Shown here: one piece after another, positions 4,117 through 33,444 of the stretch | Position numbering within the stretch: the stretch's first letter is position 1 | Layout: each line of letters starts with the position of its first letter | Source: Streptomonospora nanhaiensis | GTDB lineage: Bacteria; Actinomycetota; Actinomycetes; Streptosporangiales; Streptosporangiaceae | Direction of reading: 5' to 3' | DNA length: 64,000 nt | Assembly (NCBI RefSeq): GCF_013410565.1 | Contig: NZ_JACCFO010000001.1 | Coordinates: 5,704,001-5,768,000, forward strand | Program-made: the position numbers and the translations under genes | Notes under the pieces: generated by a model | What the model saw: only the letters and a program-made list of their open reading frames with translations | Database searches by the model: none | What the model was told of the DNA's origin: nothing

Positions 4117-5579
4117 CCCAGTCCCTTTCCCACGTGCCCACCGCCGCCGAACCGATACCCGGCACCGCCACCGGCGCCGAGGCCGCCGTCCGCTTCCCCG
4201 CGGACTTCGTGTGGGGCGCCTCCACCGCCTCCTTCCAGATCGAGGGCAGCACCACCGCCGACGGCCGCGGCCCCAGCATCTGGGACACCTTCGCCAACAC
4301 CCCGGGCAAGGTCCTCAACGGCGACACCGGCGAACCCGCCGTGGACCACTACCGCCGCTACGCCGAGGACATCGGCATCATGCGCGAACTGGGGATCGGC
4401 GCCTACCGGTTCTCCGTCGCCTGGCCGCGGATCCTGCCCGAGGGCGCGGGGGCGGTCAACCAGGCCGGCCTGGACTTCTACGACCGGCTCCTGGACGGCC
4501 TGCTCGCCGCCGGGATCACCCCCTGGCCCACCCTCTACCACTGGGACCTGCCCCAGGCGCTGGAGGACAAGGGCGGCTGGCCCAACCGCGACACCGCCTA
4601 CCGCTTCGCCGAGTACGCCGAGGTGCTGCGCGACCGCTTCGGCGACCGCGTCAGCGACTGGACCACCCTCAACGAGCCCTGGTGCGCGGCGTTCCTGGGC
4701 TACGCCGACGGCGTGCACGCCCCGGGCCGGCGCGAGCCGGCCGCCGCCCTGGCTGCCGCCCACCACCTGATGCTGGGCCACGGCCTGGCGGCCGCGGTGC
4801 TGCGCGAGGGCGCCGGCGGCGGGCAGCGGCGCGTGGGCCTGACCCTCAACCAGACCACCGTGCGGCCCTACACCACCTCGCCCGCCGACATCGCGGTCGC
4901 CCGCCGCGCCGACGGCGTGCGCAACCGGGTGTTCACCGGTCCGCTGTTCCGCGGCGCCTACCCCGCCGACATGCTGGAGGACCTGGCCGCCGTCAGCGAC
5001 TTCGCGTTCGTCCGCGACGGCGACCTGGCCGTGATCAACGCGCCGCTGGACCACCTGGGCGTCAACTACTACACCCCGCACTGGGTCTCGGCCTCCAGCG
5101 ATGGCATCGACCCCTCCCGCGTGGAGAGCGGCGGCGACAGCGGCGCCTACGTCGGCTGCGACGACGTGGTGTTCGTCAGCCAGGGCCTGCCGCGCACCGG
5201 CATCGGCTGGGAGATCGACGCCACCGGGCTGTACGAGGTGCTGGTGCGCCTGGCCGCCGAGTGCCCCGGCGTGCCCATGTACGTCCACGAGAACGGCGCG
5301 GCCTACGAGGACGAGGTCGGCCCCGACGGCCAGGTGCACGACCCCGAGCGCACCGCCTACATCGACGCCCACCTGCGCACCGTGCACGAGGCGCTGAAGG
5401 CCGGCGTGCCCATGCGCGGCTACTTCGTGTGGTCGCTGCTGGACAACTTCGAGTGGGCCTGGGGCTACTCCCAGCGCTTCGGGCTGGTCCACGTCGACTA
5501 CGAGACCCAGCAGCGCCGCGTCAAGGACAGCGGGCGCTGGTACGCCGACGTCATCCGGCGAGGTGGGCTGGCCGTGTAG
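4113..5579 (+). CDS. bglC: GH1 family beta-glucosidase
   Basis: 488 residues, close to the 484 of Thermobifida fusca BglC. The GH1 acid/base motif TTLNEP places Glu188 as proton donor, and YVHENG places Glu393 as nucleophile. The N-terminal FPADFVWGASTASFQIEG and the C-terminal SLLDNFEWAWGYSQRFGLVHVDY are standard for the family. There is no signal peptide, so it acts in the cytoplasm on imported cellobiose and cello-oligosaccharides, releasing glucose. GTG 4113 overlaps the cebG stop codon by four bases. Substrate preference is inferred from the operon. Confidence 0.93.
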   Translation: MTQSLSHVPTAAEPIPGTATGAEAAVRFPADFVWGASTASFQIEGSTTADGRGPSIWDTFANTPGKVLNGDTGEPAVDHYRRYAEDIGIMRELGIGAYRFSVAWPRILPEGAGAVNQAGLDFYDRLLDGLLAAGITPWPTLYHWDLPQALEDKGGWPNRDTAYRFAEYAEVLRDRFGDRVSDWTTLNEPWCAAFLGYADGVHAPGRREPAAALAAAHHLMLGHGLAAAVLREGAGGGQRRVGLTLNQTTVRPYTTSPADIAVARRADGVRNRVFTGPLFRGAYPADMLEDLAAVSDFAFVRDGDLAVINAPLDHLGVNYYTPHWVSASSDGIDPSRVESGGDSGAYVGCDDVVFVSQGLPRTGIGWEIDATGLYEVLVRLAAECPGVPMYVHENGAAYEDEVGPDGQVHDPERTAYIDAHLRTVHEALKAGVPMRGYFVWSLLDNFEWAWGYSQRFGLVHVDYETQQRRVKDSGRWYADVIRRGGLAV

Positions 5580-30797: not shown

Positions 30798-31895
30798 ATG
30801 GCCGACTACGAACGCGACACCGTCTCGCCGGAGGCCGACCTGGACGAGCGCGCCATCGAGGGCGCGCTGCGGCCCAAGCGGCTGGCCGACTTCGTCGGGC
30901 AGGAGCGGGTGCGCGAGCAGCTGTCCCTGATGCTGCGCGGCGCCCAGCGGCGCGGCCGGGCCCCCGACCACGTGCTGATGTCGGGTGGGCCGGGCCTGGG
31001 CAAGACCACCCTGGCCATGATCATCGCGGCCGAGTTGGGCGCGCCGCTGCGCATCACCTCGGGCCCGGCCATCGAGCGCTCCGGCGACCTCGCGGCGGTG
31101 CTGTCCACCCTGCACGAGGGCGAGGTCCTGTTCCTCGACGAGATCCACCGCATGGCCCGTCCCGCCGAGGAGATGCTCTACGTCGCCATGGAGGACTTCC
31201 GGGTGGACGTCATGGTGGGCAAGGGGCCCGGCGCCACCGCGATCCCGCTGGACATCGCGCCGTTCACGCTGGTCGGCGCCACCACCCGGGCCGGGCTGCT
31301 GCCCGCGCCGCTGCGCGACCGCTTCGGGTTCACCGCGCACATGGACTTCTACGACCCCGCCGACCTGGAGCGCATCCTGCACCGCTCGGCCGGGCTGCTC
31401 CAGGTCGACCTCGCCCCCGACGCCGCCGCCGAGATCGCCGGCCGCTCGCGCGGCACGCCCCGCATCGCCAACCGGCTGCTGCGCCGGGTCCGCGACTACG
31501 CCGAGGTGCACGGCGACGGCCGCCTCACCCGCGACACCGCCCGCGCGGCGCTGGCGCTGTACGAGGTCGACGCCCACGGCCTGGACCGGCTGGACCGCGC
31601 CGTGCTGGACGCCCTGCTGACCAAGTTCCGCGGGGGCCCGGTGGGGCTGTCCACGCTGGCGGTGGCCGTGGGGGAGGAGCCCGAGACCGTCGAGGTGGTG
31701 GCCGAGCCCTTCCTGGTGCGCTCGGGGTTCATCGCCCGCACCCCGCGCGGCCGGGTGGCCACGGCCCGCGCCTGGGAGCACATGGGGATCACCCCGCCGC
31801 CCGACGCCGCGTTCGGCGCCGGGGTCCCGGCCGCCGCCGGGGATGCCGGTGGTGCCGCCGCTCCGCCCGGTGGCGCCGGGTCATCTCAGTCCTAG
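30798..31895 (+). CDS. ruvB: Holliday junction branch migration helicase RuvB
   Basis: 365 residues, AAA+ ATPase. Walker [12 protein letters not shown], Walker [10 protein letters not shown], sensor 1 region [20 protein letters not shown] and a C-terminal winged helix ([20 protein letters not shown]). The last about 30 residues are an alanine/glycine/proline tail not seen in compact homologues. GAGGAG precedes ATG 30798. Last gene of ruvCAB; the repeat island follows. Confidence 0.97.
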
Positions 31896-31921
31896 GGGTT
31901 GAGGGGTGCGCGGGGCGGTCG

Positions 31922-32260
31922 TCGGTGCCCGGGGCGGATGGCCGGGGTGGTGACGGGGCGCCGAGGGCGGCGGGTGGCTTGGGCGCCTGACCGTCGGCAC
32001 TCAGAGCGGGTGGCGGAGGTGGTGACGGGGGAGCGAGGAGGGCGGGCCCATGGGTGTGCGGTTATCGGTGCCCGGGGTGGACGGCCGGGGTGGTGACGGG
32101 GGCAGCGACGGTGGCGCGTGGTTCGGGTGCGCGGTCACCGGAGTTCAGGTCGGGTGGCGAATGCCGCGACGAGGGCGCCGAGGGCGGTGGGTGGTTCGGG
32201 CGTGCGGCCACCGGTCAGCGGGCGGACGGCCGAGGCCGGGGGCAGCGGGGGTCCGGCGCA
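31922..32260 (+). repeat. Array of about 4.5 degenerate 72-nt GC-rich repeats (plus orientation)
   Basis: Units begin near 31922, 31994, 32065, 32138 and 32211 (spacing 71-73). The best pair, units 1 and 3, match over 36 bases with two differences (TCGGTGCCCGGGG... to ...GGTGGTGACGGG). A shared core reads roughly GGTGGTGACGGGG, GAGGGCGG, GTGGTTCGGG, TGCGG. Short open frames here are not consistent from unit to unit and lack ribosome sites, so I treat it as non-coding. Related units in the opposite orientation occur at about 32640-32880. Confidence 0.7.
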
Positions 32261-32639
32261 CCGGCAAGGGGCCAAGGAATCGGACACGTGGCGATAACCC
32301 CCCAGTTCGTCTCAACATATGAGACACGGGGGGCCTCTTTCGCGACGATCCAGCATTCCCGGCACCGGTTTCGGCGAAAACCTGCACCTCGTCGCCTTCG
32401 GAAGCTGGATTGTCGCCCTTCAAAACAGACATAAGTACCAAAGTGGGCTGTCTGCTGTAAGGGTCGTCTCACATCCTGGACAATCGACTGTCGTTCTCGC
32501 TCGGAGGGCGACCATTTCTCGCTTTGACCGGGGGGCAATTCGGGCGAATGCCTGCAAAGGTAGTAGTTGAAAGTAGTCCTGTCAGTGCTAGTCGTTTTCA
32601 AGCCCAGCGACAGGCCGATATCGCCCGCCGAGTGCCGCC
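32261..32639. other. Less GC-rich core of the repeat island, no recognised gene
   Basis: Base composition shifts sharply toward A and T compared with the rest of the window. It contains GTCTCA-ACATA-TGAGAC (32309-32325) and a second GTCTCACAT at 32466-32474. A minus-strand frame runs through but is cysteine/arginine-rich with no start signal and unlike codon usage. Could be a decayed mobile element, a small RNA locus or a protein-binding site; none can be shown. Confidence 0.5.
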
Positions 32640-32880
32640 GAACCCGGCGCGCCCCCAAGTAACCGGTCGACAACCACGCGCCCCGGCCACCCGCTGCCGT
32701 CGCCGCCCTCGTCGCCTCCGCCTGCCATCCGCGCCGGGGTCCGGTGATCGCTCGCCCGAGCCACCAGTCGGCCCTCGCCGCCCCGTCGCAACCCCAGTGC
32801 CCGCCCCGCGATCGATGGCCGCCCATCCGCCACCCCACCTCCGCCCACCCCCCGCCAACCGGTCGCGGCCAGTCCCGCAG
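32640..32880 (-). repeat. Inverted copies of the 72-nt repeat family
   Basis: Read on the minus strand, units start near 32816 and 32744, again 72 bases apart, with flanking partial units. The unit from 32744 aligns with the plus-strand unit at 32138 (CCGGA at the start; GCGACGAGGGCG; GGGTGG; GGGCG near the end). The copies therefore form an imperfect long inverted arrangement around the core. Confidence 0.6.
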
Positions 32881-33060
32881 GTGATGGCCTAAGCTGGGGA
32901 GCGGACCTTGCGAAACGGCAACGATGGCCGCGCCGACACCGAGGCGGGGAACACACCCGCCCACCCACTCGTTGACCGGCGGCGGCAAACGCCGTGGTAG
33001 CGGCCCCGTCCCCTGTCGGCGGCGCCGCCAAGGTCGAGACAACCAAGGGAAGGACACCCC

Positions 33061-33444
33061 GTGCTGGCCCAGACGATTTTGGCCAATGGCGGCGCTCCGC
33101 AGGACGGCGGGCTCCTCGGAATGCTCCTGCCGTTCGTGCTCATCGCACTCGTCTTCTGGCTGCTGATCCTGCGCCCGCAGCAGAAGCGCAGGCAGCAGGA
33201 GACCAAGATGCAGAGCGAGCTCCAGCCGGGCGTCGAGGTGCTGACCAAGGCCGGCTTCTTCGCCACCGTGGTCGAGGTGCGCGACAACGAGGTCGAGCTT
33301 GAGGTGTCCCCGGGCACCCGCATCCGCATGCTCAAGGCGGGTGTCGGCGACATCGTGCGCCCCAACGAGACCGCGGCCGACGACACCCCGGTCGAGGACC
33401 GCCCGGACTTCCCGGGCAACGACGACAAGAACGACGGCAAGTAG
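33061..33444 (+). CDS. yajC: Preprotein translocase accessory subunit YajC
   Basis: 127 residues. A short N terminus, one membrane helix (LPFVLIALVFWLLILRPQQK) ending in the family RPQQKRRQQ motif, then the cytoplasmic domain (GVEVLTKAGFFATVVEV). YajC joins SecDF at the translocon. GTG 33061 follows AAGGA. In most actinobacteria secD and secF follow immediately; here a hairpin and then apt follow. Confidence 0.93.
   Translation: MLAQTILANGGAPQDGGLLGMLLPFVLIALVFWLLILRPQQKRRQQETKMQSELQPGVEVLTKAGFFATVVEVRDNEVELEVSPGTRIRMLKAGVGDIVRPNETAADDTPVEDRPDFPGNDDKNDGK

Follow-up and report, generated by a model that had tools for sequence, protein, structure and literature searches.

The 64,000-nucleotide stretch of DNA analysed here (the window), from Streptomonospora nanhaiensis, carries between ruvB and yajC one copy of a previously undescribed family of dispersed, non-coding elements. 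Our preferred reading, to which we give a probability of about 0.55, is that this is a lineage-specific intergenic element with two palindromes of the kind found at branched-chain amino acid (BCAA) operators, likely bound by an NdgR/LtbR-type regulator and likely spreading in the manner of a MITE or REP sequence. Among the titles and abstracts listed for Streptomonospora repeats, nothing was relevant to it.

Anatomy of the element

The element has a fixed order: an array of n units of about 72 bp on the plus strand, a core, and an array of n of the same units on the minus strand, with both arrays pointing inward. The parts of the copy in the window are as follows.

30798-31895, plus strand: ruvB, upstream neighbour, outside the element
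31920-32252, plus strand: left arm of degenerate, G-rich units of about 72 bp, all in the plus orientation; profile matches at 31932-31978, 32076-32121 and 32147-32194
31992-32046, plus strand: further left-arm unit
32261-32640, plus strand: AT-richer core of the dispersed family; the closest copy is 78% identical
32309-32325: operator-like palindrome 1, GTCTCAACATATGAGAC; family form RTCTCACATNGTGAGAC
32342-32354, plus strand: left arm of inverted pair B, GCGACGATCCAGC
32389-32416, minus strand: right side of inverted pair B, with the family-type TCGTCGCC at 32389-32396
32404-32416, minus strand: added full partner of pair B, from a 21-nt insertion, GCTGGATTGTCGC
32428-32433, plus strand: conserved GACATA; family GGGCATA..GGCAAA
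32466-32482: operator-like palindrome 2, asymmetric, GTCTCACATCCTGGACA; family form GTCTCACNATGTGGACA
32673-32870, minus strand: right arm, units of about 72 bp as in the left arm; profile matches at 32686-32733 and 32771-32797
33061-33444, plus strand: yajC, downstream neighbour, outside the element

A first-pass annotation of the window had described direct repeats on the plus strand with inverted counterparts further right, and both were found, at 31920-32250 (spacing 71-73) and 32673-32870. Its count of about 4.5 plus-strand units comes down to about four; its count of at least two minus-strand units agrees with the two that we detect confidently. To avoid circularity, a repeat profile was built from the copies of S. 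mangrovi alone. This profile scored 92 bits in the left arm, on the plus strand only, and 39.3 bits in the right arm, on the minus strand only, compared with 7.3 and 14.8 bits for the best of 200 dinucleotide shuffles. The layout described in the annotation is confirmed. A core profile built from S. mangrovi alone also matched the window, at 32277-32493. The units are contiguous and about 69-76% alike, and Tandem Repeats Finder did not detect the array in the window because they are too divergent. The core had been described as clearly different in base composition, which is borne out by a GC content of 51-63% compared with 75-81% in the arms. GC skew changes from about +0.4 in the left arm to -0.4 in the right arm.

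The orientation of the units is invariant across the family. In 37 elements of this genome, 54 left units are on the plus strand and 53 right units on the minus strand (107/107), and 27 elements of S. mangrovi gave 65 and 66 (131/131). Unit spacing peaks at 71-73 bp and each arm has between 0 and 7 detectable units, with elements of about 0.7-1.5 kb overall and cores of about 250-400 bp. The unit is G-rich and non-palindromic; palindromes are confined to the core. The core consensus consists of RTCTCACATNGTGAGAC, then CGACGATCT followed after about 40 positions by TCGTCGC, then AAACGGGCATA..GGCAAA, and finally GTCTCACNATGTGGACA. It thus contains a palindrome GTCTCAC-N3-GTGAGAC, a second one, GTCTCAC-N3-GTGGAC, and an inverted CGACGAT pair. 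The inverted repeat GTCTCA-N5-TGAGAC of the first-pass annotation is palindrome 1. The distance between the palindromes is 136 bp in the family and 157 in the window copy because of the 21-nt insertion, which is common only to the copy at C1:5774327. In many copies a GACATA-type motif is also found ahead of palindrome 1 and again about 65 bp past palindrome 2. A coding gene in the core, which would have told against the annotated layout, was rejected: no common frame is open throughout the family, and in many copies every frame is interrupted by stops.

Copies and distribution

A whole-genome search with the core turned up a copy of 78% identity at a distance of 38 kb, together with several weaker ones; the arm had 49 matches. 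An iterated profile, followed by R1, a covariance model derived from 24 cores, identified 38 full-length cores in this 6.3-Mb genome, that of the window included, and 27 in S. mangrovi S1-112 (G003), with E values down to 1e-50. The window copy is therefore not a single-copy scar. Searches with the covariance model found no credible copy in four other Streptomonospora congeners or in 35 more distant genomes. Across all 41 genomes, out to class level, only marginal scores were obtained outside the two carriers, and the weak matches in G040, G004 and G001 had no paired palindromes on inspection. A pattern scan of 84,980 genomes gave, beyond S. mangrovi, no more than isolated matches in unrelated actinobacteria, one to a genome, which is what chance would produce. 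The plasmid and phage collections contained no match to the core. By yajC, S. mangrovi is the sister of the window species (96% identity compared with 86-87% for the other congeners). Judged from these searches, the family is lineage-specific and so far known in two sister species of Streptomonospora only.

Copies share on average 49% identity in this genome and 61% in S. mangrovi; between the two genomes the mean is 50%. On these identities the family is old and diverged, with the exception of two inverted pairs, L041/L045 and L036/L051. Their members lie 23 and 30 kb apart and have near-identical cores (100%; 93% over 768 bp), with arms that differ more, suggesting that gene conversion may have occurred between neighbouring inverted copies.

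Genomic context and history

All 37 cores examined are intergenic by approximate gene calls, in gaps with a median length of 1169 bp. Their flanking genes are tandem in 23 cases, convergent in 8 and divergent in 6, close to the random ratio. A terminator- or promoter-specific element was rejected because gene orientation shows no bias. The positions of the copies in this genome show no obvious strand bias relative to replication and no significant clustering in pairs (P=0.38).

In the four other congeners, ruvB and yajC are separated by a short gap without the element. S. mangrovi keeps the inverted arms at this site and has no core. The window copy had been proposed to be the scar of a lost element; this is not supported, since it retains both arms and a full core, and the scar-like remnant is the one in S. 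mangrovi. The malQ-pepN gap likewise is short and without the element in the four congeners. In S. mangrovi this gap (L168) contains long runs of G and C where the window's genome has the element; these are probably an assembly artefact. About nine S. mangrovi copies occupy the same gene site as a copy or remnant in this genome. Some members of the set are thus older than the divergence of the two species, and others were acquired or lost after it. The element probably originated or multiplied in the common lineage of these two species. That some sites have been lost or have decayed in one of them argues against each copy being essential.

Comparison of the flanks placed the right edge of the element near 32882, just upstream of the -10-like TAAGCT of yajC, which is conserved together with the leader (from about 32889) up to this edge. 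The ruvB-yajC site is strongly diverged between relatives, limiting the view of a target duplication, and we identified no target duplication, discrete terminus, terminal inverted repeat, transposase partner or recombinase for the element. The first-pass suggestion of a mobile repeat family agrees with the dispersal and with the presence or absence of copies between relatives; transposition itself would be one way to account for these. Active mobility is unproven because the copies are old and diverged.

Two further observations were made in these regions. The yajC leader at window positions 32889-32925, GGACCTTGCGAAACGGCAACGATG, is a conserved untranslated segment: it is near-identical across the six congeners, unlike the gap around it. 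Upstream of argC in an element-free congener (L163, G004) there is a different tandem repeat of three units of about 56 nt containing GGGGCGGTGGCGGGTGACGGGC.

The core palindromes resemble a BCAA operator

Allowing at most one mismatch, GTCTCA-N5-TGAGAC occurs at 33 sites in the genome, compared with one for a reversed-pattern control. Twenty-four of the 33 are inside full elements. Three of the nine others stand alone upstream of ilvB, leuB and cimA (genes named by NCBIfam). An aminotransferase-like gene and an MFS symporter each have one site upstream, and a site at 476406 resembles a truncated element. Element-free congeners carry the motif too. In G001 it occurs at ilvB and again 6.3 and 9.0 kb beyond, distances in keeping with the spacing of leuB and cimA; G002 has two sites separated by 6.2 kb, and G005 has it at cimA. 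The motif therefore looks like the operator of a BCAA regulator. Most simply, it would be a native operator of the BCAA regulon that is older than the element. The proposal that the repeats form a DNA-binding array fits in part, in that the core palindromes match the operator before ilvB, leuB and cimA; binding would follow from this likeness. We do not claim that the core derives from the ilvB promoter, to which the profile match is weak (13.4 bits) and limited to the surroundings of the palindrome.

The IclR regulator NdgR of S. coelicolor binds ilvB, leuB and the ndgR-leuC region at GTCCAC-N3-GYGGAC (PMC4340878). The motif described here resembles NdgR/LtbR operators in its CAC-N3-GTG centre, its outer GTC triplets and its location at the ilvB and leuB promoters, and the GTGGAC half-site of NdgR is the right half kept in the family consensus of palindrome 2. 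It differs in length, with 17 bp and one extra base per half compared with 15 bp in S. coelicolor; palindrome 1 is thus outside the published consensus and palindrome 2 fits its right half only. A gene of the IclR family (L143:3045-3782) is divergently oriented next to leuC, and the ndgR-leuC gap has a weak site only, GTCTCGCTATTTGGAA, which the motif search missed. From its target genes and the partial likeness of the motifs, an IclR-type NdgR/LtbR regulator is the best candidate for the protein that would bind the element.

Two other features of these loci were observed. Upstream of ilvB, the operator is followed by a short frame, GTGCAGAGCAACTTCCTCATTCTCGTACTTGGTCGGCGCGCAGCCAGCTGA (MQSNFLILVLGRRAAS), and then by a terminator-like hairpin (L136, about 4330-4450, minus strand; L153; L160). 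By its layout this is a typical BCAA attenuator leader, and it is conserved in three species. At about position 2857 of L137, a lone GTCTCATACCTTGAGAC adjoins a gene like those for bifunctional primase/polymerase-domain proteins, near a hemB-like gene, and is a possible extra member of the regulon.

Proposed mechanism and alternatives

In the mechanism that we favour, the element would spread as a non-autonomous, MITE- or REP-like repeat, probably mobilised in trans, that spread or captured the operator of an amino acid regulator. Its core would recruit the host BCAA regulator through the two palindromes about 136 bp apart, and each copy would add regulator-binding sites to intergenic DNA. Most occurrences of the motif in this genome are in the family, which could therefore titrate the regulator or bridge its sites. 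A further reading, which we offer tentatively, is that a selfish or domesticated element spread dozens of paired operators through two sister genomes, placing most binding capacity in elements and coupling element number to BCAA control through titration or a looping network. If so, the binding capacity of the regulator would lie mostly away from its target genes. The two carrier species and the four congeners that lack the element lend themselves to a natural comparison of whether about 70 added operators change the control of ilvB and leuB. It has been proposed that bacterial networks can be rewired by dispersed repeats that bear sites for host regulators. To our knowledge, clear cases with dozens of operator copies per genome, element-free near relatives and a nameable candidate regulator are uncommon.

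Among the alternatives, a resident regulatory or architectural element survives best, though we consider it improbable. Here each copy would be retained because a host protein, the BCAA regulator or a nucleoid protein, binds the paired sites and organises the chromosome or buffers the regulator, with mobility incidental. The lack of significant clustering would suit such a role, and motif columns are conserved where spacers diverge, both among copies and in five of six same-site species pairs (for example, 0.88 compared with 0.61). However, all family members share the motifs, so the same-site pattern is expected in any case and is no proof of selection at each site. The core-less or empty sites in the sister species and the absence of strand or gene-context bias also speak against this role.

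It is less likely still that the element is the relic of a transposon end pair, the arrays being multiple transposase-binding sites, as in Tn7-like ends, and the core a remnant interior or promoter region. Inward-pointing inverted arrays of repeated sites, multiple copies and presence or absence in intergenic regions are what such a relic would leave. However, conservation extends to the core rather than to the ends alone, the arms vary in unit number down to none, no cargo, transposase or target duplication was seen, and the palindromes match host operators.

The last alternative views the core as a small transcription unit or a structured RNA, flanked on both sides by Rho-type termination regions in C-rich outgoing arms. 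The skew would indeed make outgoing transcripts C-rich and G-poor on either side, and the window core folds better than shuffles. This signal is equal on both strands (z = -4.2 on plus and -4.3 on minus), however, and averages only -1.5 on either strand over 57 copies with mononucleotide shuffles. A helix formed in RNA from one strand should be enriched in G-U pairs. In pair B, the non-Watson-Crick cells comprise 57 G-T and 65 A-C with no strand preference, and RNAalifold found almost no covariation in the core family, so the compensatory, strand-specific pairing of a structured RNA is not seen. An outer stem around palindrome 1, striking in the window copy, recurs in about eight other copies and is missing from most. 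Rfam returned no family at gathering score, its sole match being far below, and consensus scans found no sigma-70 promoter or intrinsic terminator. Since G-T and A-C are equal, the palindromes look like sites in DNA rather than RNA helices, and they fit dimeric protein sites. The covariation and mispair results led us to reject an RNA element as the main reading, and we regard it as the least probable of the three.

Comparison with known systems

The anatomy of an arm, a core and an arm with inward arrays fits no repeat class that we considered. The first-pass annotation was right that it is neither a CRISPR nor a standard IS: CRISPRs have near-identical short repeats and unique spacers, whereas the units here are diverged and contiguous and form inverted arrays. 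Tn7-like ends resemble the element in that repeated sites on either side form arrays facing inward, but the element has no transposase, cargo or defined terminus and its 72-bp unit is far longer.

MITEs such as the Correia elements and those of Coxiella (PMC5896051) are likewise short, non-coding, multicopy, intergenic and lineage-restricted, with inverted symmetry. The copy numbers, the empty sites in congeners and the lack of a common frame agree with this class. In MITEs, however, the symmetry comes from single terminal inverted repeats and not from variable arrays of units of about 72 bp without a discrete terminus. No parent IS came to light, and at the diverged ruvB-yajC site a target duplication may be hidden. 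The core of this element also contains apparent host operators.

REP and BIME sequences are dispersed intergenic palindromic DNA with tens of copies, conserved motifs and divergent spacers. Our element resembles those of enterobacteria in these respects. It is much larger than they are, has a fixed arm-core-arm order and, instead of palindromic units of 20-40 bp with the REP consensus, has long non-palindromic units and a core motif common to a metabolic regulon. As expected of NdgR/LtbR operators, the motif precedes ilvB, leuB and cimA in this genome and occurs at the same loci in congeners; the difference is that most of its copies are inside dispersed elements and not upstream of BCAA genes.
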